Below, piece after piece: positions 6,981-44,647 of a stretch of 47,430 nt of DNA. Under the pieces are notes generated by a model. The model was not told where the DNA came from. It ran no database searches and saw only the letters and a program-made list of their open reading frames with translations. Origin of the DNA: a virus. The stretch's first letter is position 1; each line of letters starts with the position of its first letter. The stretch is from positions 1-47,430 of the IMG/VR virus record IMGVR_UViG_3300035698_011774; one strand, given 5' to 3'. Made by a program: the position numbers and the translations under genes.

Positions 6981-6986
6981 TAAAAA

Positions 6987-13889: not shown

Positions 13890-13907
13890 TTTCTTTGGAG
13901 AAAATAT

Positions 13908-17744: not shown

Positions 17745-18006
17745 AATGTCATATGTCCATGGGAGTAAAACATGGTTTAAGAAAGGCATCTTAACGTAAG
17801 CAATGACTAGACTAATGAGAAGTTTTATGAAAAAGAAAACAATATCTACCAGCATAAAATGCTATAAGAACGGTACGAATTCCTCCCGAGTTTTGCCCTC
17901 TTCTGGGACCGCCGATCCCGATGTATCTTCTGATACTAAGCATAATGTTGCTTGTCTACGGGGAAATACTGGTGACAGTGCCAGACCGAATGTCGGTAAT
18001 CACACT
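17745..18006 (+). ncRNA. omegaRNA/HEARO-like RNA of the isrB locus (locus B)
   Basis: Directly upstream of and overlapping the isrB open frame, where IscB/IsrB guide RNAs lie. An outer stem (17748-17752 with 17803-17807) encloses hairpins CCATG/CATGG (17757-17775) and TTAAGA/TCTTAA (17777-17794). Further hairpins are CTGG..CCAG near 17970 and CCGA-ATG-TCGG near 17990. The fold and the block at 17879-17904 match locus A. In this family the guide lies 5' of the scaffold, so the candidate guide is the roughly 16-20 nt before 17745. The 3' end should be close to where the conserved protein begins (18007). Confidence 0.6.
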
Positions 18007-19014
18007 GTTTTTGTCCTAAATTACGAAGGAAAACCGTTAACACCCACTACATCAGCAAAGGCAAGAAAACTTTTGAAAGGAGGTAAAGCAAAGAAAGTTT
18101 GGAGTAAATTTAATACTTTTGGCATTCAACTGTTTGAAGAAACGAGAGAAAAAATACAAGATACTACTCTTGGTTATGATCCCGGTACTAAATTCGAAGG
18201 TGTATCAGTTGTTTGTGGTGATGAAAATAATCTTTCGGTGAAATGGGATTTGCCAGATAAAAAACAGATTGTTAAAAGGATGAAAAAACGCAGAATTTTA
18301 AGGAGAACTAGAAGGCAACGAAATTGTAGAAGACGTAAGGCTAGGTTTAAAAATAGAAGTAGAAAGGGATTTATAGCACCTTCTCAATTAGCAATTGTTC
18401 AATCCAGGTTAAAAGTATTAAGAGAATTTTGTAAAATTTACCCTATTCAGAATGTTGCAATAGAAGATGTAAAATTTAATCATTACAAATATCGTTGGGG
18501 TAGTAATTTTAGTACTATCGAAATAGGGAAAGAGAAAATAAGAGAATTTTTCATAGATAAAGATATTAATATTTTTGAATATCGGGGTTTTGAGACAGCA
18601 GAATTAAGAAAGAAATATGGTTATAAGAAAACAAGAATTAAGAATGCCGATAAATTTTCTACTCATTGTTCTGATTCGTTAACCCTTGCCGTTGATGTAA
18701 ATTGCGGAGAAAGAGTCCCTGAAGGAAATTTTTTAGTAGTGGATGATACTTACCGTCATGTTAGAAGACGATTACATGATACACAATTTTCTAAAGGTGG
18801 CATTCGATATAAATATTCTCACGGTAACGCAAATGGTGTTGGCAAAGGGATAATGATAGGAACGAGCAAAGGTAACATTGGACAACTTTGTGGGACCAAG
18901 AATGGTTCTTTTAGATACTATGATTCAAAAGGTAAACGCCAAGTGATTAAAAAACTATTTTGGATTAACAATCAGTTTAAAATCAAAGGAGATACACGGA
19001 TTACTGTTGGATAA
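17803..19014 (+). CDS. isrB: IsrB-like RNA-guided nuclease (RuvC only, no HNH)
   Basis: 403 residues from the ATG at 17803; the conserved protein starts at VFVLNYEGKPLTP (18007). Domains in order: PLMP-type N-terminus (PLTPTTSAKARKLL), RuvC-I with Asp (GYDPG, D126), Arg-rich bridge helix (about 160-192), RuvC-II with Glu (VAIEDV), RuvC-III with HCSDS, and a C-terminal TAM-recognition-like part (KGNIGQLCG, YYDSKGKR). Between RuvC-II and RuvC-III only about 55 residues intervene and there is no HNH, which separates IsrB from IscB. IsrB enzymes are RNA-guided nickases. The first ~66 residues coincide with the RNA element. No ATG, GTG or TTG lies immediately before VFVL, so an N-terminal extension or an unusual start is required. 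Confidence 0.85.
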   Translation: MTRLMRSFMKKKTISTSIKCYKNGTNSSRVLPSSGTADPDVSSDTKHNVACLRGNTGDSARPNVGNHTVFVLNYEGKPLTPTTSAKARKLLKGGKAKKVWSKFNTFGIQLFEETREKIQDTTLGYDPGTKFEGVSVVCGDENNLSVKWDLPDKKQIVKRMKKRRILRRTRRQRNCRRRKARFKNRSRKGFIAPSQLAIVQSRLKVLREFCKIYPIQNVAIEDVKFNHYKYRWGSNFSTIEIGKEKIREFFIDKDINIFEYRGFETAELRKKYGYKKTRIKNADKFSTHCSDSLTLAVDVNCGERVPEGNFLVVDDTYRHVRRRLHDTQFSKGGIRYKYSHGNANGVGKGIMIGTSKGNIGQLCGTKNGSFRYYDSKGKRQVIKKLFWINNQFKIKGDTRITVG

Positions 19015-30228: not shown

Positions 30229-31499
30229 TAACTATCGCCACCACCTTTAATGGGTGGTGAAAAAAAACGCTATATGCAGGAAAATCCTGAGATTTTTTTC
30301 CGACTAATAAGGTAACACAGGAGAGAAAAATGGACAACCCGCAGGAAACTGAAAATTTAAACATAAAATGGCTTGCCGGTTTTTTCGATGCTGAAGGTTC
30401 AGTTGGTTTTAATGATAAACCAATTATTACGATTATGAATGTTTGTCCCAATACGTCTTTTGTTATAAAAGATACGATGATAAAAATAGGAATTATTCCT
30501 GACACTCATATAAGAGAGAAACCTTCAAAAAGTAGTAAGAAATTAAGATGGAATCTATTTCTTAGATATGAAGAACAAATTTTACCTTTTTTGAAATATG
30601 TTAAACCATATGTAAAAGGTAAGAAAAAACAATTAGAATTATTAGAAGAATGGTATGAAAATCAATCAGAAACAATTCAAGACAAATTATTTTTTGCTAA
30701 TCAAGTTTGTAATTACATTATTTGTAATCCGCAAAAAATTATGCAAAGATTAAAAATAAATAGTCTTGAACAGTATGTGGATATACCAGTTTTAAATGAC
30801 GATGATGGATATATCATTACGAATAATTTTAATTGTTTGGAATATTGTGCAGGATTGCTGGATGCTGATGGAAGTTTTAATTTAGACTTCATGTCAATAA
30901 AAGGTAAAAGCAAATATACTCCACAAATAATTTTGATGAACAAAAATAAAGAAATAATTAAAAGTTATTGCTCCGTTCTGACGAATAATAGTATTGGATG
31001 TCATGTTCTATTCAATACAAGTGAAAAAAAAGCGGATAAAAGAAAATGGAAAATAACAGTATCAGGATGTAAAAGATGTATAAAAATGCTAGAATTAATA
31101 ACATCGAAAATTCATACTAAAAGAGAGCAAGCCAATCTTCTGTTACAATATTGCAGATATAAATTAGAAAATTCCTCTAATGCTAATGATATCACTGGTT
31201 TTGAGTGTAAAAAAGCGTTGGAAGGAATGAAGAAAGGTTTTTATGTTTAAGAACAAAATCCTCAACGACTGTATGCGTTTTATCGTAATTTAATTAAAAT
31301 CTACTTGTAGATTTTAATGACGATAGTGAGACAGTCTGATCTGCATGGTAACATGCAGAGATAAGCAGAAATGACTTATCCCTTGATTTTGTATATACAT
31401 GCTTAGAAATTTCAAGTATAGTTAAAAAATTATAAGTCTATATATACAAGTATATTTAGAAGTTGTAAGTATATATATAATCAAGAGTAACAAATTGTG
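30229..31499 (+). ncRNA. Group I intron 1 in the MCP gene
   Basis: About 1271 nt between MCP exons 1 and 2, with a LAGLIDADG ORF inside. Core elements by eye: a hairpin CACCACC/GGGTGGTG near 30239-30260, a P-type element TATGCAGGAAAAT near 30273, and CCTCAACGACTGTATGC (31259-31275) with its partner AGACAGTCTGATC (about 31330) as P7-type strands. The P9-type hairpin CTGCATGG-TAA-CATGCAG follows. The stretch AATCCTCAACGAC is shared exactly with intron 2. I could not find a convincing P1 pairing, so the 5' splice site is set by frame and may be off by a base or two. Confidence 0.75.
30330..31250 (+). CDS. LAGLIDADG homing endonuclease in intron 1
   Basis: 306 residues, GGAGAG about 6 nt before the ATG. 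Two LAGLIDADG motifs, LAGFFDAEGS near residue 15 and CAGLLDADGS near residue 174, make it a double-motif monomeric enzyme with both catalytic acids present. Its length and the basic residues after each motif fit the family. It would cut the intron-less MCP allele near the exon 1/2 junction and drive intron homing. It is translated from within the intron; some such proteins also help splicing. Confidence 0.9.
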   Translation: MDNPQETENLNIKWLAGFFDAEGSVGFNDKPIITIMNVCPNTSFVIKDTMIKIGIIPDTHIREKPSKSSKKLRWNLFLRYEEQILPFLKYVKPYVKGKKKQLELLEEWYENQSETIQDKLFFANQVCNYIICNPQKIMQRLKINSLEQYVDIPVLNDDDGYIITNNFNCLEYCAGLLDADGSFNLDFMSIKGKSKYTPQIILMNKNKEIIKSYCSVLTNNSIGCHVLFNTSEKKADKRKWKITVSGCKRCIKMLELITSKIHTKREQANLLLQYCRYKLENSSNANDITGFECKKALEGMKKGFYV

Positions 31500-31760
31500 G
31501 TTGAGCCAATTCGCAGAAGTTTGGAGTATCAGGCTGTAGGTCGTAAGTTGCTGATGGTTGACGAGCTGCCCCAAGGTGCTCTTGCTCGTTATGAGCGTGA
31601 TGTAGCCGCGATTGCACACGTAGTTTCGCGTCGTGGTGCTGTACCTGACCAAATTCAGGAAGGTGAAGAGGTTCTTGTTCCTACTTTTGAAATTGCCGCA
31701 CATCCCACAGTTCGTATGAGTGAGATCAAGGCAAGACGATTCTATATAGTCGATCGTGCT
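31500..31760 (+). CDS. Major capsid protein, exon 2
   Basis: 87 codons, VEPIRRSLEYQAVGRKLLMVDELPQ and onward, ending FYIVDRA. This is the conserved N-arm/E-loop region of a widespread large-phage MCP group (YERDVAAIAHVVSRRGAVPDQI, EIAAHPTVRMSEIKARRF). Codon usage here is less AT-rich than in the flanking intron, as expected for a highly expressed gene. The exon ends with T at 31760, the base before the intron 2 splice site. Confidence 0.85.
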
Positions 31761-32792
31761 AAACTGATTTGGGCACGTAAGACCGCCATATGCTGGAAAC
31801 TCTCGAACTTGACGATAAGATTAAGATAGGATAATACGGATAAAAACAAATTATTCCTAAACGAGACAATCAGCAGGAAAGGCTTTGGATATAAAATATG
31901 GATAAAAGAAAAAAAGCATTAATAAATGAAATAAAGCACTGTATATTGAAAGAAAAAATATCAATTAGTGAAGTGTCAAGAAGAACTAAATTGACTAGAA
32001 GAACAATAGTAAAATGGATGAAACAAGAAGGTATATTGAATAAGAATGCATGGATATTTAAATCTCCGGACAAAATATCAAAAATGCAATTACAAGTATT
32101 AAGAGGAACCGTTTTAGGGGATGATTGTATATACATTTTCCCGACATGTGTCAATCCTAAATTACTTGTTTACCATTCTATCGCTCAGAAAGAATACGCA
32201 AATTTGAAATTACAAATATGGAAAGATTTTGTATTTGCTGATAAACTGAAAGTCAGCAAAAGGAAAAAAGGTACGAGAGTACATTTTGAAACAGCTGTAC
32301 ACAAAGGTTTTTTACCAATATACAATGCTACATATATTAATAAAAAGAAAACAATCACAGCAGAATTTTTAGAAACACTAACTCCATTATCACTGGCTTT
32401 TTGGTTCCAGGATGATGGGAGTAGATGTAAAAATCGTGGGTTAACAATACATACTAATTGTTTTTCCTTAGAAGAAGTGGAAATTTCTTGTAGTTTTTTG
32501 AAAAACAGATATAATATTAAATGTAATCCACAACGAAGGAAAAAAGATCAATATGTCATATTTTTTAGTAATGCTACTAGTAAAAATTTCGCAGAGATGA
32601 TATTACCATGGGTACACCCATCGATGAGATATAAGTTAGAAGGTATATATCCGAAGAATCCTCAACGACCATACGCGGTCCCTTTTAAGTTCGAAAATCT
32701 TAAAAGTGAAGATATGGTCTCCTCTGCATAGCGATATGCAGCCTGTAAAACAGGAAAACTTATTAATGAAAAAATGAGTTTTAAGATACTTG
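31761..32792 (+). ncRNA. Group I intron 2 in the MCP gene
   Basis: 1032 nt. P1 is clear: exon end CGTGCT (31755-31760) pairs with intron GGCACG (near 31773), giving the required U-G at the splice site. The core follows: TATGCTGGAAAC (P element), AATCAGCAGG (Q element), CCTCAACGACCATACGCGGTCC and GAAGATATGGTCTCC (R/S elements of P7), then a P9-type hairpin CTGCATAGCGATATGCAG. The intron ends in G at 32792. Removing it joins GTG-CT to CAG in frame (VDRA-QIKAKEAIQ). An endonuclease gene lies between the core halves. Confidence 0.9.
31898..32731 (+). CDS. LAGLIDADG_2-type homing endonuclease in intron 2
   Basis: 277 residues. An N-terminal helix-turn-helix (ISEVSRRTKLTRRTIVKWMK, about residues 22-42) precedes a LAGLIDADG DNA endonuclease core of the organellar/phage type. 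The two motifs are LRGTVLGDDC and SLAFWFQDDGS. It differs from the enzyme in intron 1, so the two introns acquired unrelated endonucleases. The C-terminal coding end overlaps part of the intron core (through the conserved P7 strand), a common compaction in such introns. Confidence 0.87.
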   Translation: MDKRKKALINEIKHCILKEKISISEVSRRTKLTRRTIVKWMKQEGILNKNAWIFKSPDKISKMQLQVLRGTVLGDDCIYIFPTCVNPKLLVYHSIAQKEYANLKLQIWKDFVFADKLKVSKRKKGTRVHFETAVHKGFLPIYNATYINKKKTITAEFLETLTPLSLAFWFQDDGSRCKNRGLTIHTNCFSLEEVEISCSFLKNRYNIKCNPQRRKKDQYVIFFSNATSKNFAEMILPWVHPSMRYKLEGIYPKNPQRPYAVPFKFENLKSEDMVSSA

Positions 32793-33302
32793 CAGATTAA
32801 AGCCAAAGAAGCTATTCAAAAGGAAGAGGACACGAACATTTTTAACGCTCTGATTGCTGCTGCAACAACTCTGGGAACCCAGATCGTAACTAACGTTGGT
32901 ACACTAAGTGTAACTTCGTTGAACACCGCGTATCGTATGATCGAGGAACACGATTTGGTTACAACTAAAGTTGTTATGCATGCTCGTCAGTTCGCTTCAA
33001 TCCGTATTTTGGGTAAAGATTTCTATGATGAGGCAACTCAGAGAGAAATCATCACAACAGGGTTATACGGTCATTTATGGACCGCTGACCTTCACGTGTC
33101 AAGTCGTATGGACGTAACCACGGTTATTTGTGTTGCATCCCCAGATACAGTTGGAGCTTTTCCGATTCGTCAGGATATTACAGTACTACCAGCAGACGAT
33201 CCTAAGAAAATCCGTTTGGGATGGGTAATCTACGAAGAGATCGGAATCGTAATCTTAAATGATTACGCTATCAGTCTAATCGAGGTAACCGCTGGTTCGT
33301 AA
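32793..33302 (+). CDS. Major capsid protein, exon 3
   Basis: 169 codons plus stop. It starts QIKAKEAIQKEEDTNIFNAL, continuing the capsid spine helix from exon 2. It ends in a P-domain/beta-tongue region (GLYGHLWTADLHVSSRMDVTTVI) and a hydrophobic C-terminal strand (EEIGIVILNDYAISLIEV). A strong terminator follows 14 nt after the stop, marking the end of the head operon. The TTG at 32790 belongs to the intron and is not a start. Confidence 0.85.
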   Translation, partial: QIKAKEAIQKEEDTNIFNALIAAATTLGTQIVTNVGTLSVTSLNTAYRMIEEHDLVTTKVVMHARQFASIRILGKDFYDEATQREIITTGLYGHLWTADLHVSSRMDVTTVICVASPDTVGAFPIRQDITVLPADDPKKIRLGWVIYEEIGIVILNDYAISLIEVTAGS

Positions 33303-33316
33303 AGGATTTATAGCAC

Positions 33317-33353
33317 TTTAAAGAGAGCCGCCAATTAGGCGGCTCTCTTTAAA
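33317..33353 (+). terminator. Strong intrinsic terminator after the MCP
   Basis: A perfect 16-bp inverted repeat (TTTAAAGAGAGCCGCC, loop AATTA, and its complement) with a T-rich 3' arm. Because the stem is a full palindrome with A and T tracts on both sides it can work in both directions. It isolates the highly expressed MCP from the endonuclease gene downstream. The following 155 nt up to 33508 are AT-rich with no clear promoter that I can defend. Confidence 0.9.
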
Positions 33354-33508
33354 TATATACATATTTAGCCACTATTGTATATACAATCACATCTACGAGT
33401 ATAGATTTTTCTCAAAAAATGTAAGATTTCTTGAAAGTTTTTCTTGATAATTGCCGATACATAATGTAGAGACGCACTTAATGTGAAATTTTTAAGGAGT
33501 TTACAATC

Positions 33509-34498
33509 ATGAGAGAACAACCACATTACACTAATTTGTTGACTAAGGAATTTTTCGAACTACATTACGAACAAGAGAGAATGTCATTCCCGGATATTAA
33601 GAAGATGCTCGATAAACAGGGACACAATATCGTAACTAGTACGATATATAGTTATGCTAAAAAGTTTGGTATTGGACGATCAATCGCAGCAGGTCGAGCA
33701 GACCTAGATTATAGCAAAACTTTTATGACAGAGGAGATTGTAGAAGCGGTTGACGGTTTTATTATTGGAGATGGTGGCATCACTTCAAAAGCAGGATGCC
33801 CGTCTGCAAGATTAAGTTGCGGAGTAGAGCATGAAGAATTTTGTATATACATGATGGACCATTTTACAGATTATTGTGTATCTTATAAGAAACGTATTGA
33901 CGACACAATGAAACAAGGATTCGTATGGAGAAGTACCACTAAACATCACCCTGATATTCAACAGCAGTATCTTCGTTGGTATCCTGAAATCAATGGTAAG
34001 AGAACGAAGCAGCCACCTAATGATGTAAGGATTACCCCTCTTTCTGTTATGATGTGGTATCTTGGAGACGGCTCCGTTGTTGTTAATAACAAGTCCAATA
34101 CTATTATGCTAAGGTTGTCAACTGATAGTTTTTTACCGGAAAAAGTAGAATTTCTGGTTGATAAATTAAATGACATTTCAATTTATTGCCATAGGACAAA
34201 AGAAAACAGAATAATGGTTGACGCCAAAGGCATCCCTGCCTTTTTTAATTTTATTGGCAAGAAATCCCCAATAAAATGTTATGATTACAAATTTGACAGA
34301 GTTCCCATATGGAGATTTTCTTCGAAAAGAATGTCAGAAGTTGCTGAAGAAATTGGTGTATCATATGGACGATTGTCTTATTTGGTTAAACAAGGAAAAA
34401 TTGGTTGCTATAGAGCGAGCGAGAGAGGAAGACCTCGTTTATTGCCTGAACATGTTGAACAAGCCATAGAACTTATCTATGAAGGTTCATTGTATTGA
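33509..34498 (+). CDS. Free-standing LAGLIDADG homing endonuclease
   Basis: 329 residues, AAGGAG about 9 nt before the ATG. Two motifs, DGFIIGDGG (near residue 88) and VMMWYLGDGS (near residue 184), place it in the LAGLIDADG_2 group, like the intron 2 enzyme but with different flanks. The N-terminus has a DNA-binding-type helix-turn-helix (FPDIKKMLDKQGHNIVTSTI). The C-terminal ~50 residues resemble a MerR/excisionase helix-turn-helix (MSEVAEEIGVSYGRLSYLVK). No intron core is visible around it, so it appears to be free-standing, next to the most conserved gene of the genome. Confidence 0.85.
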   Translation: MREQPHYTNLLTKEFFELHYEQERMSFPDIKKMLDKQGHNIVTSTIYSYAKKFGIGRSIAAGRADLDYSKTFMTEEIVEAVDGFIIGDGGITSKAGCPSARLSCGVEHEEFCIYMMDHFTDYCVSYKKRIDDTMKQGFVWRSTTKHHPDIQQQYLRWYPEINGKRTKQPPNDVRITPLSVMMWYLGDGSVVVNNKSNTIMLRLSTDSFLPEKVEFLVDKLNDISIYCHRTKENRIMVDAKGIPAFFNFIGKKSPIKCYDYKFDRVPIWRFSSKRMSEVAEEIGVSYGRLSYLVKQGKIGCYRASERGRPRLLPEHVEQAIELIYEGSLY

Positions 34499-35855: not shown

Positions 35856-36029
35856 ATGACGATACCCGAAGATGCCGCATTTGAAGAATATTTCTCTTTG
35901 TTACTTGCTGAGAAAAGATTTGGAGAAGCAGTAGTATTATTATCAGACAAAACACGCGATAAATACTATAGATATTTATATAGCGATTTTGAAGAAAAAA
36001 TAAAAGATAGGATAGACGAGGAAATTTAA
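35856..36029 (+). CDS. Array protein 1 (57 aa), C-terminal KIKDR tag
   Basis: First member of the tagged small-gene array. An acidic helical N-terminal part (about 40 aa) is followed by YSDFEEKIKDRI near the C-terminus, then four extra residues. There is no strong SD. The next gene begins 2 nt after its stop. The tag, not the N-terminal part, links it to the genes downstream. Confidence 0.6.
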   Translation: MTIPEDAAFEEYFSLLLAEKRFGEAVVLLSDKTRDKYYRYLYSDFEEKIKDRIDEEI

Positions 36030-36031
36030 AA

Positions 36032-36562
36032 TTGGGCAAACAAAAAAAGTACATCGATCCAATCTTGGAGGATCGCAGACGCCAAGAGATAAACAATGAA
36101 AAATATTTTCATACTTATTTGAGTACAATATTTAATTTAACATGTGAAAAACCGGATTATTTATTACCATATGGATATGAATTAACTCCTGATTTTGTAG
36201 TTTTACAGAAACGAATAATCACATACGTATTTGAGGTCGTTACTCTCCATATCCCTGATAATAAAGATGAAGGCCGTAAAAGTACAGCAAGGATTTTCCG
36301 GACTTTACAAAAAAAAAGAGACAAGTATAAAAAATTGGTTACAAAGGAAGCATCTAAATTTATTATATGTCTCGCATTAGATCCTAGAATTACCATTGAT
36401 GATCATTCTTTTTTGTCTGTATCTCAAGATATTTTTCGTGGCGTGGATGACCAACAAATTAGAACACACGTAAGTGGGATTTTATTAAAACGAGAAAATG
36501 GTCTTGGTCCTATATTTTATCAGAATCTTAACGCCAAGCAGCGTGTTTATGTACAATTCTGA
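36032..36562 (+). CDS. Possible PD-(D/E)XK nuclease-fold protein (176 aa), TTG start
   Basis: It starts at a TTG with GAGGAAA about 8 nt upstream, inside the end of array gene 1. The segment ELTPDFVVLQ..YVFEVV (Asp54, Glu68) fits the PD...E core of restriction-like folds, but the usual Lys after Glu is replaced. The helix with RKSTARIFRTLQKKRDKYKKL that follows is also typical. It lacks the array tag. Beside a methyltransferase two genes upstream, it could be a nuclease, but activity is uncertain. Confidence 0.5.
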   Translation: MGKQKKYIDPILEDRRRQEINNEKYFHTYLSTIFNLTCEKPDYLLPYGYELTPDFVVLQKRIITYVFEVVTLHIPDNKDEGRKSTARIFRTLQKKRDKYKKLVTKEASKFIICLALDPRITIDDHSFLSVSQDIFRGVDDQQIRTHVSGILLKRENGLGPIFYQNLNAKQRVYVQF

Positions 36563-36574
36563 ATGCTGTTTTAA

Positions 36575-36592
36575 TTTTTTCCGCAAAAAAAA
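36575..36592 (+). promoter_or_regulatory. Intergenic T6-CCGC-A8 motif
   Basis: TTTTTTCCGCAAAAAAAA between array genes. Similar blocks occur in other gene gaps: 35741-35756 (inverted), 37867-37881, 42434-42449 and 45797-45808. Recurrence only in or next to gaps suggests a shared regulatory or transcript-processing site. It has no -10/-35 pattern I can defend. Confidence 0.35.
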
Positions 36593-36625
36593 TAAACACT
36601 GCCTATGATGATATGGAGAGAAAAA

Positions 36626-36811
36626 ATGTATGATGGAATTGAAATCAGCAGTATTAGAGCATACAACGAAGACGGTGAGGAAATGATGGGTATTTCGGTA
36701 GTATTTACAAAAAAATACTATAAACAAATTATAGATGCGATTGATAGTATCAATGAGTGTGGCGAACAATATAACGATTTCCAAGACAAGACAGGAGATA
36801 GATTACAATGA
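36626..36811 (+). CDS. Array protein 2 (61 aa), helical module + tag
   Basis: Start at 36626 because GGAGAG lies 6 nt upstream; an in-frame ATG at 36605 lacks an SD. The N-terminal part is a beta-hairpin followed by a helix (TKKYYKQIIDAIDSINE), shared in outline with array proteins 3 and 7. The C-terminus is YNDFQDKTGDRLQ, a diverged tag. ATGA overlap with the next gene. Confidence 0.7.
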   Translation: MYDGIEISSIRAYNEDGEEMMGISVVFTKKYYKQIIDAIDSINECGEQYNDFQDKTGDRLQ

Positions 36812-37173
36812 AATTTAAAGTTGGAGATAGAGTCAAATACAAAGATATGTACGATCCGCTCGATTTTCATGGGGAGGGGACTATTATTTACATAGGAACA
36901 GTACCCAATCGTTATTATGTAGACTGGGATGAATTACCCACTTTTTGTACTTCTATGAAATTAAAATACCTCACTTGGGTTTCTCCCGAACAAGCCATGT
37001 ATGATCATGATTTTAAAGAAGAAATCACACTTTTAGATGATGGTGATTTTGAAATTACATTGAGATTGAGTAAACAGAACTATTATAGGATTATGGAACT
37101 GGCTAGAGAAATCGCAAAAGGAGTCGATCAGCATGATGATTTTGAAAAAAAGATAAAAGATAGATTACAATGA
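36808..37173 (+). CDS. Array protein 3 (121 aa), SH3-like + helical module + tag
   Basis: The largest tagged member. It has an N-terminal SH3/KOW-like barrel (FKVGDRVKYKD, then GTIIYIG, then YYVDWDELP). A second module (FEITLRLSKQNYYRIMELA) resembles the one in array proteins 2 and 7, and the tag HDDFEKKIKDRLQ follows. It therefore combines both N-terminal module types of the array in one chain. ATGA overlaps on both sides. Confidence 0.72.
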   Translation: MKFKVGDRVKYKDMYDPLDFHGEGTIIYIGTVPNRYYVDWDELPTFCTSMKLKYLTWVSPEQAMYDHDFKEEITLLDDGDFEITLRLSKQNYYRIMELAREIAKGVDQHDDFEKKIKDRLQ

Positions 37174-37388
37174 AATTTAAAATAGGAGACAGAGTGATTC
37201 TGCGTAAGGAGTATAGCAAGCAGCCTCAAAGAATCAGATATGGTATTGTAGTATCAAACGTGTTAGGTGATCCAGAGGTTTTATGGGATGATGAAAAATA
37301 TGATGGAACGATATTGTATCATCCACAGGCACTTATACTTGACCCTTATGCTGACTTTGAAGAAAGAATAAAAGACAGGATGTTTTAA
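37170..37388 (+). CDS. Array protein 4 (72 aa), SH3-like + tag
   Basis: It begins MKFKIGDRVILRKEY, with a GIVVSNVLGDPEVLWDDE strand pair typical of the array's SH3/KOW-like barrels. It ends YADFEERIKDRMF. Start overlaps the upstream stop (ATGA) and its TAA overlaps the next ATG (TAATG). Confidence 0.72.
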   Translation: MKFKIGDRVILRKEYSKQPQRIRYGIVVSNVLGDPEVLWDDEKYDGTILYHPQALILDPYADFEERIKDRMF

Positions 37389-37633
37389 TGGAATTACATG
37401 TAGGAGATTTAGTTAGATTAAAAGATACCGAGAAGGATGGTGTAATTTGGATTAAAGAGGAGTCTAATTTTATGTATCCAGAAGGAGTTTATGTTGTTAA
37501 ATGGGATAATTACTCGAAACTTACTCTGAATCAACCTTCGGATTTGGTTTTTGTCGCTTCAGGTTTTAGTCTTTTTGTTGCCAATTCATATTTTGGATTT
37601 AGAGACAAAATTAGAGATAGAATGAAAGGATAA
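37388..37633 (+). CDS. Array protein 5 (81 aa), SH3-like + tag
   Basis: It begins MELHVGDLVRLKDTEKDGVI and has VYVVKWDNYSK, the W-D strand common to array barrels. The tag is YFGFRDKIRDRM plus KG. Here the usual Asp before Phe is Gly, showing which tag position tolerates change. Confidence 0.7.
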   Translation: MELHVGDLVRLKDTEKDGVIWIKEESNFMYPEGVYVVKWDNYSKLTLNQPSDLVFVASGFSLFVANSYFGFRDKIRDRMKG

Positions 37634-37638
37634 TAAGT

Positions 37639-37866
37639 ATGGTATTAACAGTGAAAGATTTAAGAGAGAAGTTATCTGAGAGGGGTGATGACGAACAGCT
37701 AATATGTTTTATGAAAACTGATACTGGATTGAAAGTTTTTGATATTGTAGATATAACATCAGAGAAAATTATTTCTTTTCGTGAGAATGGGAAAGTCCAA
37801 TTTCGTATTGAGCCTGATGGGCCAAATGAGAAATGGTCGTTGATTGAAATCACAGATGATGTATGA
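37639..37866 (+). CDS. Array protein 6 (75 aa), without the tag
   Basis: The one member of the array without the C-terminal tag. It begins MVLTVKDLREKLSERGDDEQLICF and continues as a small alpha/beta chain ending LIEITDDV. The phrase VKDLREKL..DD..I resembles a domain seen in many phage and plasmid small proteins whose function is unknown. It is followed by the T/CCGC/A motif and a fresh SD, so the array may be split into two transcripts or translation units here. Confidence 0.6.
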   Translation: MVLTVKDLREKLSERGDDEQLICFMKTDTGLKVFDIVDITSEKIISFRENGKVQFRIEPDGPNEKWSLIEITDDV

Positions 37867-37886
37867 TTTTTCCGCAAAAAAAGGAG
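37867..37886 (+). promoter_or_regulatory. T5-CCGC-A7 motif merged with a strong SD
   Basis: TTTTTCCGCAAAAAAAGGAG: the recurrent intergenic motif followed directly by AAGGAG, 5 nt before the ATG at 37892. This is the strongest ribosome binding site in the array and favours 37892 as the start over the in-frame ATG at 37844. Confidence 0.4.
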
Positions 37887-37891
37887 ATACT

Positions 37892-38068
37892 ATGTCAGAG
37901 AAGGTTAAGATATTAGGGGCTTCTGGTGGTGGTAATGGGGGAACATTTGGTTTACAATTAGAAATCCCATCAAAACATTATCAAGATATCACGGATTTTA
38001 TTGATGGTTTAAATAAAAAAGAAGAATATGAAGAGTTCAGAGATAAAATAACAGACAGGTTAGCATGA
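37892..38068 (+). CDS. Array protein 7 (58 aa), helical module + tag
   Basis: It starts MSEKVKILGASGGGNGG. The middle strand-helix (LQLEIPSKHYQDITDFIDGLNKK) parallels array proteins 2 and 3. It ends YEEFRDKITDRLA. ATGA overlap with the next gene. Confidence 0.7.
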   Translation: MSEKVKILGASGGGNGGTFGLQLEIPSKHYQDITDFIDGLNKKEEYEEFRDKITDRLA

Positions 38069-38286
38069 AGAGATTTAAAGTTGGTGATATAGTTGTTCAT
38101 AAAATGGATTACGATTTACATCTATATGGGGTTGGCACTATCATATTGTGTAGAAAGGGGGAGTACTATAATGTCGAGTTTAAAACACTTATTAGTAGTC
38201 TGATATTCCATGGCTCTTATTTAAAATTATTCGATCCTCATTTTTATGCGGATTTTATGGACAGGATCGAGGATAGACTATTATGA
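38065..38286 (+). CDS. Array protein 8 (73 aa), SH3-like + tag
   Basis: MKRFKVGDIVVHKMDYD start, a GTIILCRKGEYYNVEF strand pair, tag YADFMDRIEDRLL. Overlaps both neighbours by ATGA. Confidence 0.7.
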   Translation: MKRFKVGDIVVHKMDYDLHLYGVGTIILCRKGEYYNVEFKTLISSLIFHGSYLKLFDPHFYADFMDRIEDRLL

Positions 38287-38528
38287 ATAAATTAAAGATC
38301 GGAGATAGGGTAGTACATGTTAAGTGTAAAAATCATGGTTTTGGGATTATTATAGCGATAGACGGCTTATTTGGTACACAAAAAGGCCAGTATCTGGTCC
38401 AATGGGACTCTGTAGATCCACACAAAGTACAGATACAACAACTATTATTTCCTTATGACGAAATTAGATTGGTAGATGAAGAAATTTATCAAGATTTTCT
38501 AGACAAAATTGAGGATAGGTTATCATGA
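38283..38528 (+). CDS. Array protein 9 (81 aa), SH3-like + tag
   Basis: MNKLKIGDRVVHVKCKNHGFGIII start, YLVQWDSVDPHKVQIQQL strand, tag YQDFLDKIEDRLS. ATGA overlaps on both sides. Confidence 0.7.
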   Translation: MNKLKIGDRVVHVKCKNHGFGIIIAIDGLFGTQKGQYLVQWDSVDPHKVQIQQLLFPYDEIRLVDEEIYQDFLDKIEDRLS

Positions 38529-38725
38529 AGTTTAAAATCGGGGATAAAGTATATTACAAAGATATGGAGAATCGCCTTGGGACAATCACTAGTGTCAATG
38601 ATTTTGGACATCCTTGGGTTGAATGGGAAGACGAATTAGGATCAATTCCATATTATAAATGGCTAATTGTTCATTGTGATTATCATAACGATTTTTTAGA
38701 AAAGATAAAAGACAGGATGTTATGA
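38525..38725 (+). CDS. Array protein 10 (66 aa), SH3-like + tag
   Basis: MKFKIGDKVYYKDMENRLGTIT start, PWVEWEDELGSIPYY strand, tag HNDFLEKIKDRML. This is the cleanest minimal barrel-plus-tag member. ATGA overlaps on both sides. Confidence 0.72.
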   Translation: MKFKIGDKVYYKDMENRLGTITSVNDFGHPWVEWEDELGSIPYYKWLIVHCDYHNDFLEKIKDRML

Positions 38726-38967
38726 AATTAGTAATTGGACAAGAAATGTTTTTTAGGAATGATTATGGTGGGCCGTTAATCACCGGTGTAATAGATATAA
38801 TTAATCGAAATAGAGAATACAAATATTCAGTAATTTGGCGTGATGGCATTAGAAATAGTTATAGATATAAGGAGATTATCCTTTTTATAAAAAGATACGA
38901 TCCATATTTTACAGATTTTTTCGATAAGATAAAAGAAAGATTACCATGTATTCAAATAAATGTTTAA
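38722..38967 (+). CDS. Array protein 11 (81 aa), SH3-like + tag with short tail
   Basis: MKLVIGQEMFFRNDYGG start, YSVIWRDGIRNSY strand. The tag FTDFFDKIKERL is followed by PCIQINV, because the gene reads 20 nt past the usual end and overlaps the next start by 22 nt. The overlap suggests loss of the original stop. Confidence 0.65.
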   Translation: MKLVIGQEMFFRNDYGGPLITGVIDIINRNREYKYSVIWRDGIRNSYRYKEIILFIKRYDPYFTDFFDKIKERLPCIQINV

Positions 38968-39086
38968 CAGAATTGATTGATTTAGGAGACAAAGCTCTTC
39001 GTTCGGAGGAAGAAGAAGCGTATTATGATTTTCGCGAAAAAATAATAGATAGACTTGGTAAAGATTATGTTAGAACGATACAATGA
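38946..39086 (+). CDS. Array protein 12 (46 aa), short helix + tag
   Basis: ATG at 38946, inside the end of the previous gene. The product is an acidic helix (CLTELIDLGDKALRSEEEEA) then YYDFREKIIDRLG and an extra KDYVRTIQ. At 46 residues it is the shortest member; half of it is the tag and tail. Confidence 0.6.
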   Translation: MYSNKCLTELIDLGDKALRSEEEEAYYDFREKIIDRLGKDYVRTIQ

Positions 39087-39087
39087 A

Positions 39088-39255
39088 ATGACGAAACAAT
39101 TTAAGAATATGGTTAATGCTATTAAACAATTACGTCATACTATCGATAGTACGCAGACAACATTCGATAATGCCTTGTGGAGAATGTTTAAAAAATCAAG
39201 TTCCGAACAAGATCATAATGATTTTCTCGATAAAATAAAAGACAGGATGGAATAA
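39088..39255 (+). CDS. Array protein 13 (55 aa), helical + tag
   Basis: I take the ATG at 39088, just after the previous stop. In-frame ATG 39067 and TTG 39055 are alternatives. A long helix (FKNMVNAIKQLRHTIDSTQ) precedes HNDFLDKIKDRME. TAATG overlap with the next gene. Confidence 0.62.
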   Translation: MTKQFKNMVNAIKQLRHTIDSTQTTFDNALWRMFKKSSSEQDHNDFLDKIKDRME

Positions 39256-39413
39256 TGACCGAAAGGGAATGGGAAGAATATGGAGAGGATCTTGCAGAGA
39301 TGTTAGATTTTTTTGGTCCATCTCTTCCTAAGTTGCTATCTGCTTATGCGGATTTTCAAGAGAGAATTAATGAAAGGATCGGGAAAAATGACAAAACCAC
39401 CTTTACATCCTAA
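39255..39413 (+). CDS. Array protein 14 (52 aa), acidic helix + tag
   Basis: ATG overlaps the upstream TAA. It begins MTEREWEEYGEDLAEMLDFFG; the tag YADFQERINERI is followed by about ten extra residues. The next gene's ATG lies inside this tail. Confidence 0.58.
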   Translation: MTEREWEEYGEDLAEMLDFFGPSLPKLLSAYADFQERINERIGKNDKTTFTS

Positions 39414-39591
39414 AATAAATCCTAACCATCCTTTGTTAAAAGGACTGGTGGGAGTGTTTATGTGTGGTGTGGCATACGACAAAAATCTCATACAAAAATG
39501 GTACAACATTGGACCACATGCTTCTGATTATTATGCCGATTATTACAAAGATTTTGAAGATAAAATCAAAGACAGAATGGGAGAAAATTAA
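39388..39591 (+). CDS. Array protein 15 (67 aa), LamG-lead-like segment + tag
   Basis: Start at 39388 (GATCGGGAAAA upstream), within the previous gene; in-frame starts further up lie in that gene's coding region. The N-terminal phrase INPNHPLLKGLVGVFMCG resembles the entry strand of LamG-type phage adhesins, such as RYDHPISQGLVAYWPFWEG in this window's own adhesin. It ends YKDFEDKIKDRMGEN. TAATG overlap with the next gene. Confidence 0.62.
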   Translation: MTKPPLHPKINPNHPLLKGLVGVFMCGVAYDKNLIQKWYNIGPHASDYYADYYKDFEDKIKDRMGEN

Positions 39592-39752
39592 TGTCTTATA
39601 ACGATTTCGCAGACAGGATTAAAGATAGGATTGGGATAGAAATAGAACCTTTTGTAGAATGGACGGCGGTGCAAATGACTAAACCTGTGTTTTTCCCATC
39701 ATGCAATGGATGGATACCGGATTGGCAAAAAAGTAGAAAAGATAAGAGATAG
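39591..39752 (+). CDS. Array protein 16 (53 aa), N-terminal tag, frameshifted C-terminus
   Basis: The tag sits at the N-terminus (MSYNDFADRIKDRIG). The middle (TKPVFFPSCNGWIPDWQKS) resembles the portal phrase QPMFFSPLHTPQNWQIASKK. The frame ends at TAG 39750-39752, but the neighbouring frame right after the AAAAAA run (39727-39732) reads VEKIRDRMGEN to a TAA, the same C-terminal ending as the previous gene. A single-base indel therefore probably removed its C-terminal tag. It shares a near-identical ~75-nt start with the next gene, so the two are a tandem duplication. Confidence 0.6.
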   Translation: MSYNDFADRIKDRIGIEIEPFVEWTAVQMTKPVFFPSCNGWIPDWQKSRKDKR

Positions 39753-39767
39753 AATGGGAGAAAATTA

Positions 39768-40073
39768 ATGTCTTATGATGATTTCGCAGACAAAATTAGA
39801 GATAGACTTGGGATAGAAATAGAACCCGTGATGGATTGGCCGATTAACAATCAACCTATGTATTTTGGCCCAAGCCACAAACCGCAACCTTGGCAAACTA
39901 ATAATAAAAAATCGCAGGTATATAAAACGGAATACAAGGCTGAGTGGACGCAACCTTTGAGTGTTGTCCTACACCCCGTTCATACTCCACAAACTTGGCT
40001 AATAGCCCAGGAAAGATATGATATATATCATTACAAAGATTTTGAAGACAAAATTAAGGATAGATTAGGATGA
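39768..40073 (+). CDS. Array protein 17 (101 aa), tags at both ends, two portal-like segments
   Basis: N-terminal tag SYDDFADKIRDRLG and C-terminal tag YKDFEDKIKDRLG flank two repeats. These are NQPMYFGPSHKPQPWQTNNKK and VVLHPVHTPQTWLIAQERYDIY, and both resemble the portal N-terminal phrase QPMFFSPLHTPQNWQIASKK. This is the clearest case of virion-protein fragments placed in the tag framework. GGGAG lies about 7 nt before the ATG. ATGA overlap downstream. Confidence 0.72.
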   Translation: MSYDDFADKIRDRLGIEIEPVMDWPINNQPMYFGPSHKPQPWQTNNKKSQVYKTEYKAEWTQPLSVVLHPVHTPQTWLIAQERYDIYHYKDFEDKIKDRLG

Positions 40074-40300
40074 AACATAAATTTAAAGTAGGAGACAGAG
40101 TAAGATATATCCATGATATTAGTGACAAAGGAACCATTATCCAATTGTATGGCATTAACAGGGGAAAAATTCCAGATTATGACGTTTCATGGGATTCGGG
40201 CCTTTATCATATATGCCATCCAGAAGACGAACTGATTAGTGATTTTTTCATTAGTCAACATGAAGAATTTTCGGCAAAAATTAAGGATAGATTAGGATGA
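40070..40300 (+). CDS. Array protein 18 (76 aa), SH3-like + tag
   Basis: MKHKFKVGDRVRYIHDISDKGTII start, YDVSWDSGLYHI strand, tag HEEFSAKIKDRLG. ATGA overlaps on both sides; AAGGATAG in the upstream tag codons acts as its SD-like sequence. Confidence 0.72.
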   Translation: MKHKFKVGDRVRYIHDISDKGTIIQLYGINRGKIPDYDVSWDSGLYHICHPEDELISDFFISQHEEFSAKIKDRLG

Positions 40301-40536
40301 CAGAATTCAAGGTGGGAGATGAAGTGAAATTGGATATAGAGAATTATCCTATATGGAACCGACATATGAGAAATGAAGGAATACTATATGGTGTAATATC
40401 TGCGATTACTCCTTCTGGGGAGTGTGACATAAATTGGCCATGTGGCTTAGAATATAGGTATCAATTAGAATATGTTGAACACTATATTGGTCCATATGAG
40501 GACTTTATGGATAAAATTAGAGATAGACTAAAATGA
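40297..40536 (+). CDS. Array protein 19 (79 aa), SH3-like + tag
   Basis: MTEFKVGDEVKLDIENY start, longer loop (NRHMRNEGILYGVISAI), CDINWPCGLEYRYQ strand, tag YEDFMDKIRDRLK. ATGA overlaps on both sides. Confidence 0.7.
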   Translation: MTEFKVGDEVKLDIENYPIWNRHMRNEGILYGVISAITPSGECDINWPCGLEYRYQLEYVEHYIGPYEDFMDKIRDRLK

Positions 40537-40727
40537 AAGAATCAGAACGTTATATTGATAAAAATGGGAAGATATGTATAGAGAAAGAGGATGGGACAAT
40601 ATATACTTGGCAAATGGACTGTTATTCCCAGACAGTTGAAGAAGTTATGGAAGAGATGATTCCTAATTGGGCAGAGAAAAAGCAACATCGACGTTTTCTT
40701 GAGAAAATTGAGGATAGACTAAAATGA
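40533..40727 (+). CDS. Array protein 20 (64 aa), beta-hairpin/helix + tag
   Basis: MKESERYIDKNGKICIEKEDG start, then helix VEEVMEEMIPNWAEKK and the tag HRRFLEKIEDRLK. It has a tandem paralog immediately downstream that is 11 residues shorter. ATGA overlaps. Confidence 0.68.
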   Translation: MKESERYIDKNGKICIEKEDGTIYTWQMDCYSQTVEEVMEEMIPNWAEKKQHRRFLEKIEDRLK

Positions 40728-40885
40728 AAGAATTAGAATATTATATTGATAAAAATGGGAAGATAGGTATAGAGAAAGAGGATGGGTCAATTGGAGAAGT
40801 TATGGAGGAATGGTTCCCTAATTGGGTAGGGGAAGAGCAACATCGACGTTTTCTTGAGAAAATAAGAGACAGATTATACATATGA
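40724..40885 (+). CDS. Array protein 21 (53 aa), shortened duplicate of array protein 20
   Basis: ATG 40724 overlaps the upstream stop. Its first ~22 codons and last ~20 codons are nearly identical in DNA to array protein 20, but about 11 codons in the middle are missing. It ends HRRFLEKIRDRL plus YI. This is a recent duplication with an in-frame deletion; the tag is intact. Confidence 0.62.
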   Translation: MKELEYYIDKNGKIGIEKEDGSIGEVMEEWFPNWVGEEQHRRFLEKIRDRLYI

Positions 40886-41124
40886 AGATGAAAATACACA
40901 AATTAAAGATAGGTGATCTTATAGAATACACTCGCGGTGATGGCATGGTAGTTTGTGGAAAAATAGAGAATATATATGGTGTAGAAGAAACATATTTTAG
41001 CGTTCGTTGGGATGACATGAGTGACCTATCATGGGACCATAACGCCGGAGACATGTTAAGATTTCTTCATCGTGGACCTTATCCTGAAGATTTTTTTGAA
41101 AGAATAAGGGACAGATTAGGGTAA
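40882..41124 (+). CDS. Array protein 22 (80 aa), SH3-like + tag; last gene of the array
   Basis: MKMKIHKLKIGDLIEYTRGDG start, YFSVRWDDMSDLSWD strand, tag PEDFFERIRDRLG. It converges with the minus-strand ArdC-like gene and the two coding ends overlap by 9 nt, so no terminator separates them. Confidence 0.7.
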   Translation: MKMKIHKLKIGDLIEYTRGDGMVVCGKIENIYGVEETYFSVRWDDMSDLSWDHNAGDMLRFLHRGPYPEDFFERIRDRLG

Positions 41125-42429
41125 TCCTGTCTGTTCTCCCATATCCATTTCTGCCGCTTTTTTATTAATCCCCGTAATTATCGTTTTAACTGATTTAGAT
41201 ATAGCTTCTCTTCTTCTTCTCACATCTGCTCCTGTTCCTTGCCACAATGCGATATATCTTGGCGTATCCTTTGTTTCAAAACTATAATGATTAAGAACTA
41301 TAAACGCTGTTGATTCTGCGTCAATTTCTAAATCTTTTCTTGTCAATGTTTTTCTTTCTTTTTTACCTTCCAATGACCAGTGTAGAATTTCGTGAGCAAG
41401 TTCGTGGACTAACGTGCTAAATTTGTTAATACCATCGAATGTGTCATTAATTCTTATCTTTTGACCAGCTGCGTATCCACCTAATTCTGTTTGCATTTCT
41501 TCTGTTCCCATATCTATTCCTAATTCCACTGCCCAATCCCAAGCCGAATTAATGAGGAATGTGATTTCTTCTAATTGTTCGTTGGGATCTTGTCTCCATT
41601 CTTTAGGTTCATAGGGGCCTTCTCCTTCTTTCCCTTTCCATCCGGCCATAGCTTCTGTGTCTGCAAAATCATAGACAATAGCCGGAACAAAGTACATATA
41701 CTCATGTTGGCTTCTGTTTGGAAAATTAAACCATTGATCTGTAGACATCGTTGCTTTTAGTTTTTTACCTTCTTGTGTTAGGCCTGTTCTTGGGGCTATA
41801 ATTTCTATTTTATTTCCCCAGTTTGTAACCTGTCTTCCGAATTTAGCCATCCATTGTTTTGCTCCTGCAACTTTAATAGATTTTGGATTTTGGAACCAGA
41901 TTAGAATTTGGTTTCCAAAACTGTAGTTGTGGAATTTGGCCGCGAATGATAGATAGCTTCTTACGAATTCGGTTGCGGCTTCAGAGTCTACTCTTAATGC
42001 TAATTCATTAATCATCTTGTGGGCATAATCTATAATGGCTTTTGCTTTATCACTTGCTTTTCCGGCTTCTCCTTTTGCTTTTTCTATACCTGCTTTCATT
42101 TTATCCAATTCTATTTCTACTGGTGATTTTGGTTCTGTTGGTACGGCAGGTGGGGCTTCTATCTGCGGTTGTCCTTCTTGGGCGTCTGGAGAATCAAGAA
42201 GTGATAGATCGAGGTCTAAGGCTTCTAATGCTTGTCTTTTTTCTGGAGTGATGAATTTGATTGCTGTTGACCACGTTCCTTTGAAAAATCTGAATCCAAG
42301 GCTTCTTAGTGTGTCTTTGATTGCGAATGTATTTCCCATTAATGCTAGGAATTTCATGCCAGTTTTTTTGTTGACAGTAATTCCAGCTTGGACTCCTTGG
42401 GCTATTTTAACTATTTTATACCAGTTCAT
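41116..42429 (-). CDS. ArdC-like antirestriction protein with zincin (HExxH) domain and MNWYK tag
   Basis: 437 residues. Residues 1-10 are MNWYKIVKIA, the tag shared with the next three genes. Residues about 31-53 (MGNTFAIKDTLRSLGFRF..GTW) form a small domain often found before DNA-processing domains. Residues about 150-255 match the ArdC N-terminal ssDNA-binding domain (SFGNQILIWFQNP, AGAKQWMAKFGRQV..KIEIIAPR). A metallopeptidase with HELAH (342-346) and downstream EIDAEST follows. ArdC proteins protect incoming DNA from restriction. GCGGAGA lies about 5 nt before the ATG, preceded by the intergenic T-run motif. Confidence 0.8.
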   Translation of the reverse strand: MNWYKIVKIAQGVQAGITVNKKTGMKFLALMGNTFAIKDTLRSLGFRFFKGTWSTAIKFITPEKRQALEALDLDLSLLDSPDAQEGQPQIEAPPAVPTEPKSPVEIELDKMKAGIEKAKGEAGKASDKAKAIIDYAHKMINELALRVDSEAATEFVRSYLSFAAKFHNYSFGNQILIWFQNPKSIKVAGAKQWMAKFGRQVTNWGNKIEIIAPRTGLTQEGKKLKATMSTDQWFNFPNRSQHEYMYFVPAIVYDFADTEAMAGWKGKEGEGPYEPKEWRQDPNEQLEEITFLINSAWDWAVELGIDMGTEEMQTELGGYAAGQKIRINDTFDGINKFSTLVHELAHEILHWSLEGKKERKTLTRKDLEIDAESTAFIVLNHYSFETKDTPRYIALWQGTGADVRRRREAISKSVKTIITGINKKAAEMDMGEQTGLP

Positions 42430-42446
42430 TATTTCTCCGCAAAAAA

Positions 42447-43103
42447 TTATACATAACTATATTCTCTGTCTTCCACTTCAACTCCTGGAGTTGGAGAAAC
42501 GGGATTATCTTCTGGTTCATCGTTGTCATCTCCTCCTCCAAAATAGAAATTATTAATTGTTGTTTTTACATATTGTCCTACTTCGTAAGGAGTTTTCAGT
42601 TGTCCTTTATCGCTTTCTCCTATTTCTTCGATATTGAAGTACCCTTTATTTCGTGGCTCTATTCTTGCTCCCCACAGCACAGTTGTAAAGTCTATTAATT
42701 CATTTCCTGTTTCTGAATTATATTCATTGGCTTCCATTGGTTTCATTTGGTCCAAATAGTATTGTCTGAATTCCATGGTGTCTTCAAATACTGTTGGTGT
42801 CATATCTGGTTCATCCCATCCTCTTGTCATCCCATAAGAACCTTCGGACGGATGGACAACATGAGGGGCTTTTCTAATATAAACATATGTTTTGATATGG
42901 AACCAATCTCCTGGCATAACGACATCTGTACCTGTCAATTTACATCTAAATCTTTTTTGGTCTTTGTATCCTGGTGCTAAGTTTTCTGTTTCTATTGTCC
43001 AATTTCCGTTGTTCTGTAATTGGATTGATTCAAATATATGTTGGCACATATCGCCTACAGGTATCATCTGATCCGCTAGTTTTATCTGTTTATACCAATT
43101 CAT
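42447..43103 (-). CDS. MNWYKQIKLA-tagged hypothetical protein (218 aa)
   Basis: It starts MNWYKQIKLADQMIPVG. The rest is beta-rich with several aromatic residues (WTIETENLAPGYKDQKRFRCKL, WFHIKTYVYIRKAP) and an acidic, Pro-rich C-terminal tail. No domain recognised. Its ATG overlaps the stop of the upstream minus-strand gene at 43103. It shares only the first ten residues with its neighbours, so the leader is a transferable signal rather than a sign of overall homology. Confidence 0.62.
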   Translation of the reverse strand: MNWYKQIKLADQMIPVGDMCQHIFESIQLQNNGNWTIETENLAPGYKDQKRFRCKLTGTDVVMPGDWFHIKTYVYIRKAPHVVHPSEGSYGMTRGWDEPDMTPTVFEDTMEFRQYYLDQMKPMEANEYNSETGNELIDFTTVLWGARIEPRNKGYFNIEEIGESDKGQLKTPYEVGQYVKTTINNFYFGGGDDNDEPEDNPVSPTPGVEVEDREYSYV

Positions 43104-43444
43104 TAATGAAAAATCACCATATGAGGATTATTAAAAGCCTTATCTAATATCGATTTTATTTTATTTTCCACGAAAGCGTATCTATCAGGATTTTCATGTT
43201 TAAAACTAATAACAGCACTTAGCATATGTGTTCCTGGAACATATCTCCCAGTTGCAAAAACATCTTTTACTGGACCTGATGTCATAGCCTCATATTCATG
43301 ACAATTATTAGACATAGTATCCCAAGTGACCAGTTTAAAATCTGAGTCTATGAACCATAAGGTCACTTCAGTAGGATTATCCTCGTTATGTCCAATATCT
43401 GTATAATAGATAGCGGCTAATTTTATTTGTCTATACCAATTCAT
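43103..43444 (-). CDS. MNWYRQIKLA-tagged hypothetical protein (113 aa), paralog of the next gene
   Basis: It starts MNWYRQIKLAAIYYTDIGHNED. The body (VTLWFIDSDFKLVTWDTMS, VFATGRYVPG, ISFKHENP) aligns throughout with the protein encoded at 43444-43848, so the two are tandem paralogs. No known domain. Stop and start overlap with both neighbours in a minus-strand operon. Confidence 0.65.
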   Translation of the reverse strand: MNWYRQIKLAAIYYTDIGHNEDNPTEVTLWFIDSDFKLVTWDTMSNNCHEYEAMTSGPVKDVFATGRYVPGTHMLSAVISFKHENPDRYAFVENKIKSILDKAFNNPHMVIFH

Positions 43445-43848
43445 TATCTAAATACCGTAATTTTTGGATTGTTAAATTCCGCATCTATTATGGATATTAC
43501 TCTTTTTTCTAGATAATCGTTTTGTTTGGGATTCTCGTATTTGAAATTTATTGCAATGCTTGCGACATCAGATGACGGGTCATATCTACCACTTGCGAAA
43601 ATCTTTTGATCCCGTTCATTCATCCGTTCCCAATCTTCATGAGACTGATCAGACGTTGTTTCCCAGGTAAAGAGAATGAAGTTAGAGTTTACAAACCATA
43701 AGACCACATCCACTGGCTTGCCTCTAATATCATAAATGTCTGGGGCTATCTCTATTTTCTCTTTCCTGCCATGACCTATGTCCATAAACGACAAATCATT
43801 ATTTGGCACAACTGGAAAAGCTAATTTTATCTGTCTATACCAGTTCAT
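43444..43848 (-). CDS. MNWYRQIKLA-tagged hypothetical protein (134 aa)
   Basis: I start it at 43848, where the product begins MNWYRQIKLAFPVVPNN like its three neighbours. The frame stays open for 54 further codons upstream, but that part overlaps the opposite-strand pseudopilin gene and has no matching leader. Body strands VVLWFVNSNFILFTWETTS, IFASGRYDPS and INFKYENP match the 113-residue paralog. First gene of the four-gene minus-strand operon. Confidence 0.68.
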   Translation of the reverse strand: MNWYRQIKLAFPVVPNNDLSFMDIGHGRKEKIEIAPDIYDIRGKPVDVVLWFVNSNFILFTWETTSDQSHEDWERMNERDQKIFASGRYDPSSDVASIAINFKYENPKQNDYLEKRVISIIDAEFNNPKITVFR

Positions 43849-43939
43849 AGTTATAGTATTCTTTGATTTGTGTTCTTTTCCTTTGCCGAAAAAAAGGTAG
43901 GGAAGCAAGAAAGTTTGAATTATAATAGGGAGATTAAAC

Positions 43940-44647
43940 ATGATCAAAAAAGCCTTTACATTAATTGAGATGTTAGTAGTCGTTACAATTATATCTGTAC
44001 TATTAGCCATTCTATCTCCATCTGCTAGAATGTCTGTAATCAGAGGGGAGATGACCGAATGTGCCCATCATATGAGGCAATTAACGATTGCATGGCAACA
44101 GCACTCCGTAGAACATCGAATGGTTTTAGTAGAATCGAATACGCATAATGGATGTTGGGCCGCTAGTAGTAGTCAAGGCGGAAATACGATTGAAGGGATG
44201 ACTGTGGGGGAATTATGGCCTTATATCCTAAACATAGATATATATAGTTGTCCGACTCCTGTTTATGATTATTACATTACATATGCTTTGAGTGGAATGC
44301 TACATGGAGAGGGAGGCTTTAGTGGTAGGGTCTTTAAATGGATGCATATCACAAATCCCAGCGAAATTATGTGTTATATTGAAGAAGATGATTATCGTGG
44401 TTATAACATGAACTCATTTATGTGTTCCAGTCAGCCTGGAAAATGGATTGATTATGTTGCTGGCAATCACGATGGTGGTGATAATATTTCGTTTTGTGAT
44501 GGTCATGTTGAATATCACAAGTGGCTAGATCCAGATACCCTAACATTTCCCTACCCGCCATCCGGTGAAGGCACCAGGAGTCATGGGTATGTTGATGCGG
44601 GAAGTGTTGACGTTGAATACCTTCAAGAAATTTTTTGGCAATACTGA
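43940..44647 (+). CDS. Prepilin-like protein with H-X9-DG motif (type II secretion pseudopilin type)
   Basis: 235 residues, GGGAGA about 8 nt before the ATG. The N-terminus KKAFTLIEMLVVVTIISVLLAIL is a type IV prepilin signal and transmembrane helix, with Ala instead of the usual Gly before FTLIE. Near the C-terminus, NHDGGDNISFCDGHVEYHKW contains the H-X9-DG processing-associated motif of large prepilin families of Planctomycetes, Lentisphaerae and Verrucomicrobia. This is host-type sequence inside phage genes, so it was probably acquired from the host. It could change host pili or display a surface protein. Divergent from the MNWYR operon. Confidence 0.8.
   Translation: MIKKAFTLIEMLVVVTIISVLLAILSPSARMSVIRGEMTECAHHMRQLTIAWQQHSVEHRMVLVESNTHNGCWAASSSQGGNTIEGMTVGELWPYILNIDIYSCPTPVYDYYITYALSGMLHGEGGFSGRVFKWMHITNPSEIMCYIEEDDYRGYNMNSFMCSSQPGKWIDYVAGNHDGGDNISFCDGHVEYHKWLDPDTLTFPYPPSGEGTRSHGYVDAGSVDVEYLQEIFWQY

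Follow-up and report, generated by a model that had tools for sequence, protein, structure and literature searches.

Two look-alikes of the portal N-terminal phrase in a small tagged protein of an uncultured relative of giant phages

A protein of 101 residues (protein 17), encoded in an array of small tagged ORFs, carries two look-alikes of an N-terminal phrase of the phage's own portal, and by the sequence comparisons made here this resemblance is real, surprising and well beyond chance. The window analysed is the whole virus record of 47,430 bases, and its source phage is an uncultured relative of giant phages. The features concerned are given in Table 1. The segments of proteins 15, 16 and 17 quoted in a preliminary description of this DNA were all found in those proteins where it had placed them.

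Table 1. Positions of the portal, adhesin and tag-array features in the window
Feature	Position	Strand	Remarks
Ser-rich stalk and LamG adhesin	1135-3216	+	PF13385 3.6e-14; entry phrase 2533-2574, placed by alignment
Portal (contains an intein; nuclease-like domain at its C-terminus)	19048-21843	+	PHROG 16240 8.5e-39; Pfam Hint, Portal_Mu, DUF559
Copied portal phrase QPMFFSPLHTPQNWQIAS	19258-19335	+	In N-terminal part of portal
ORF array (about 20 small ORFs, most of them overlapping)	35856-41124	+	17 carry tag [DE]F..[KR]I.[DE]R[LIM]
Protein 15	39388-39591	+	ORF, 67 aa; C-tag; phrase resembling a LamG entry at 39415-39462
Protein 16	39591-39752	+	ORF, 53 aa; N-tag paralogue of protein 17
Protein 17	39768-40073	+	ORF, 101 aa; tagged at both ends, with the portal-like segments A and B (in this order) between the tags
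Protein 17 segment A (QPMYFGPSHKPQPWQTNNKKSQVYK region)	39849-39926	+	29.0 bits against portal-phrase profile
Protein 17 segment B (WTQPLSVVLHPVHTPQTWLIAQERYDIYHYKDF; quoted also as TQPLSVVLHPVHTPQTWLIAQERYDIYHY)	39945-40043	+	26.0 bits against portal-phrase profile

The portal phrase and its counterparts in protein 17

A portal-phrase profile was built from the portals of relatives (54 found, 38 distinct; the window excluded) and compared with the 2577 ORFs of five records. Protein 17 was detected in two domains, with E = 4e-15 for the whole protein; no other non-portal ORF scored better than E = 0.37. Both segments align to about portal residues 70-96. Segment A, with 13 of 25 residues identical in one register, scored SW 84 against the own portal (maximum among shuffles: 56 for whole protein 17, 50 for its N-terminal half; 0 of 1000), and segment B scored SW 69 (maximum 42; 0 of 1000). 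A reciprocal search with the portal consensus as query returned, besides portals, the two segments alone (segment B, 5e-7; segment A, 3.5e-6) and one match at 0.06 in record G045, which proved to be an unrelated ORF. The sequence PVHTPQTW in locus L208 was likewise rejected, as the stretch around it reads neither as a portal nor as a tag protein. When all proteins of the window were compared with each other, protein 17 and the portal formed the only strong pair outside the tag, SH3, MNWY, intein and LAGLIDADG-type families. A chance match is thus ruled out by the shuffles, the reciprocal search, the profile search and the all-against-all comparison, and the two look-alikes of the own portal that the preliminary description had seen inside a tag framework of protein 17 are confirmed. 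Protein 17 is an intact ORF within a run of genes with ATGA overlaps. It gave no PHROG and no portal Pfam match, and the portal fold is absent.

Among 17 intein-free portals, an 18-residue window of the phrase is 99% identical per column (median 64%) and belongs to the very top windows; because of this extreme conservation the phrase probably touches something invariant. Several relatives' portals have an insertion directly after YQW, and both segments of protein 17 lose their portal resemblance at about this place. As the model of the portal was poor (pLDDT 48), T4 serves as the analogue for placing the phrase in the portal ring. In T4, attachment to the capsid depends critically on the first 73 portal residues, and the N-whisker is essential (PMC7136217). 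By the same analogy the phrase may do the same job here as the T4 N-terminal region.

The portal further has a C-terminal nuclease-like domain (residues 802-871, DUF559/MTES_1575), whose nearest solved sequence, 3r3p, is that of a mobile intron protein. All 17 aligned relatives have the E.DG..WH residues of this domain unchanged. Immediately preceding the portal is an RRXRR protein (PF14239, 1e-41; 17803-19014, +), the start of which we take to be IscB/IsrB-like. The same observation extends to the stretch 13590-13911, where the ORF 13590-13787 is 92% identical to one adjoining a similar protein in contig G001. Over the loci 3192-6299, 19048-21843, 22384-29454 and 30330-34498, intein-like insertions are present in the terminase, portal and protease-like genes, and the major capsid gene is in two parts (31497-31829 and 32790-33302), with homing-endonuclease-like ORFs between and around them.

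The preliminary description had called the segments recoded, and this term is apt. At degenerate residues common to segment A and the portal, codons were the same at 8 of 11 positions (6.5 expected from genome usage), and for segment B at 4 of 9 (4.8 expected). Since codon agreement is at the level of genome usage, the protein 17 DNA is not a recent copy of the portal gene; its DNA identity to the own portal, no higher than to several other portals, also rules this out. Key portal residues are retained in both copies, though the codons agree at the genome-usage level alone. Protein 17 is represented by a single sequence, and one sequence does not separate an old duplication from convergence.

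We tentatively favour a reading of protein 17 as a two-headed mimic of the N-terminal, capsid-facing portal arm; it would occupy the binding site of the arm and tune portal assembly. Protein 17 would have been built from two diverged copies of the arm phrase, with the array tag at both ends. The arm would be the contact site with the capsid or a core partner, and protein 17 may bind, through its two heads, either this partner or the portal's own arm groove. Such binding could delay or limit portal docking, or bring the partner to a putative receptor of the array tag. Protein 16 would be a decayed sister of protein 17, and protein 15 is possibly an analogous construction on a LamG entry strand. 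If protein 17 binds the partner of the portal, the phrase would be an assembly control point, for which protein 17 would offer a natural ligand as a probe. Portals of the phage group show hardly any variation in the phrase.

The tag array and its variable island

The array tag is mostly C-terminal, often behind SH3-like barrels. Its F, I and R are identical in 17 of 17 copies; because these residues are invariant while their codons vary, the tag is preserved at the protein level. Among the heads an SH3-like barrel is the most frequent, and the tag lies in the terminal helix that comes after it (alignment; model pLDDT 85); the nearest solved folds were Tudor/SH3-like, e.g. the UvrD C-terminal domain, none of them below E = 0.001. 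That one terminal peptide is shared by some 17 dissimilar heads suggests one common receptor. A repeat protein of contig G002 (L102, 8885-9496, -), with LSEKFIEKFRDKVDW as its repeat, likewise bears the array tag, which is therefore modular.

A second shared tag, the N-terminal MNWY(K/R/N)xI(K/R), occurs on unlike proteins in the window (41116-44010, -) and in record G003 (L209, 7580-8497, -), and looks like a targeting peptide. The ORF at 43940-44647 (+) has a pilin-type N-methylation signal and a weak DUF1559 match; a similar gene is present in G003 at 6763-7563.

The search for relatives covered 50 records: the two array contigs, G001 and G002, and 48 retrieved as portal relatives. With protein 17 as query the portal was found in 47 of the 48 portal-relative records. 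No non-portal copy of the phrase was present in the related records searched (three of 334-494 kb), and no orthologue of protein 17 in the portal-bearing relatives searched, including those of 334-494 kb. A required role of protein 17 in the phage group is thus unlikely, and its absence from these relatives speaks for a lineage-specific, possibly dispensable element. Relatives of proteins 15 and 17 were also not found in phage reference genomes. Apart from the window, only G001 and G002 among viral contigs were found to have tag arrays (7 and 11 ORFs, respectively, with a looser tag pattern), and on neither of them was a portal found. Among the portal-holding relatives searched, the pairing of portal and look-alike, which the preliminary description had proposed to look for in related genomes, did not recur: none of them has a protein like protein 17. 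Four single matches obtained for tag arrays in 84,980 prokaryote genomes were, by eye, ordinary genes.

The portal core of G003 is 72% identical to that of the window. Past its major capsid gene G003 lacks the array and has different small genes; from the DUF5661 gene onward it is again syntenic with the window. As the syntenic place in G003 is without the array, the array sits in a variable island past the major capsid gene. This absence would also be expected if pieces of other genes, such as the portal gene and a LamG gene, had been captured by fusion to tag-coding repeats in a fast-changing island and were now drifting with little or no function. Portal-arm mimicry is the most economical functional reading, and the capture of drifting fragments is nearly as likely. 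It would agree with local duplication (proteins 16 and 17, and the ORFs at 40533 and 40724), with the out-of-frame C-tag of protein 16, with the missing LamG domain match of protein 15, and with the failure to find orthologues of proteins 15 and 17. Drift is less easily reconciled with the retention of key residues in both copies of protein 17 despite background-level codon agreement, or with a tag that has kept F, I and R in every copy with varied codons.

Resemblances of proteins 16 and 15

Judged by the N-terminal tag, proteins 16 and 17 are paralogues (blastp E = 3e-11, through MSYxDFADxIxDRxGIEIEP). Its C-tag, VEKIRDRMGEN, sits beyond a run of A6, out of the protein 16 frame. The portal look-alike ascribed to protein 16 in the preliminary description turned out to be weak. 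In the alignment to the own portal 435 of 1000 shuffles were equal or better, and the phrase matched segment A of protein 17 no better than shuffles did; against the portal consensus the score was reached by 306 of 5000 shuffles by alignment, and against the portal-phrase profile by 35 of 5000, so that the phrase is marginal at p = 0.007-0.06. A G002 protein (28003-28257) has the same layout as protein 16 and retains F and P.WQ, the latter common to proteins 16 and 17 and this protein; its own match to the portal is marginal (88 of 5000 by alignment, 194 of 5000 by profile).

For protein 15 a likeness to the LamG domain of the phage's own adhesin had been claimed. This was borne out in part: protein 15 is probably LamG-like, the tie to the own adhesin was not supported, and protein 15 is closer to LamG proteins of other phages. 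Its head KPPLHPKINPNHPLLKGLVGVFM resembles LamG entry strands, e.g. KPRWEWRPRLNPNHPLSIGLVGLWLFN, and has the entry phrase HPL..GLVG.W without the W. The score against the own LamG domain was reached by 22 of 1000 shuffles, and a small LamG-entry profile, with entries picked by domain alone and independent of protein 15, gave E = 1.5. The DNA phrase for NHPLxxGLVG was found in 16 stretches in 2.9 million viral contigs, 11 of them with an ORF carrying the phrase; of the ten scanned, nine match PF13385 (Laminin_G_3) and L164 matches no family, while the remaining ORF, nearly identical to one of the nine, brings the LamG-type ones to ten. The alignment of protein 15 with L173 extends beyond the phrase, with an E-value that is biased since the loci were fetched with the phrase of protein 15; a LamG profile built from sequences fetched in this way was set aside as circular. 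Protein 15 itself gave no match to PF13385, nor to any family at E up to 10. Because the phrase is nearly exclusive to LamG proteins and the match to the own domain is weak, protein 15 resembles LamG entries generally more than the own adhesin. A LamG origin or likeness of protein 15 is probable, though not a specific origin from the own adhesin.

The alignment result for protein 16 (306 of 5000) and the E of 1.5 for protein 15 with a profile not chosen from it would be explained if both resemblances were chance and that of protein 17 alone were real. We consider this improbable, as the phrase of protein 15 is almost exclusive to LamG proteins, and protein 16 reaches 35 of 5000 by profile and has P.WQ in common with protein 17 and the G002 protein.

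Convergence, modularity and comparison with known systems

A still poorer candidate is a convergent linear motif, by which protein 17 and the portal would independently have evolved a ligand for the same partner with no common descent. Codon agreement of the shared residues at the genome-usage level is consistent with it, as is the finding that segments A and B are each closer to the portal than to each other. Linear motifs usually comprise 3-10 residues, and segment A, with 13 identities over 25 residues in a single register, together with a second copy is long for such a motif.

Beyond portal-arm mimicry by protein 17, the whole array could be a modular set of tagged small proteins, with heads that include miniature copies of the best-conserved interface phrases of virion proteins and serve as decoys or adaptors in timing the assembly of the portal, and perhaps of the adhesin; this wider proposal appears rather doubtful to us.

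In open-licence papers we found no description of a tag array or of a portal-phrase mimic of this kind. The closest counterparts of protein 17 are the portals of a large uncultured phage group, whose N-terminal phrase of 26 residues was found in protein 17 as two domains; protein 17 differs from them in having the phrase alone, twice, and not the portal fold. Distant portals retain mere traces of the phrase, among them gp14 of Bacillus phage G, the nearest portal of an isolate (30% identity). Virion proteins of the LamG type (Laminin_G_3, PF13385) share with protein 15 the entry phrase KP..NPNHPL..GLVG, whereas protein 15 is without a Pfam LamG match and, with 67 aa, leaves no room for the domain. 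T4 gp40 is not known as a mimic of a portal phrase. The likeness of protein 17 to the portal assembly chaperone of the T4 gp40 type (PMC7824862) lies in the proposed role only, that of a phage protein acting on portal incorporation. The T4 proteins with a capsid targeting sequence (Alt and internal proteins; PMC7411985) are likewise dissimilar proteins that have a short terminal peptide in common, and the array differs from them in that its tag is mostly C-terminal.
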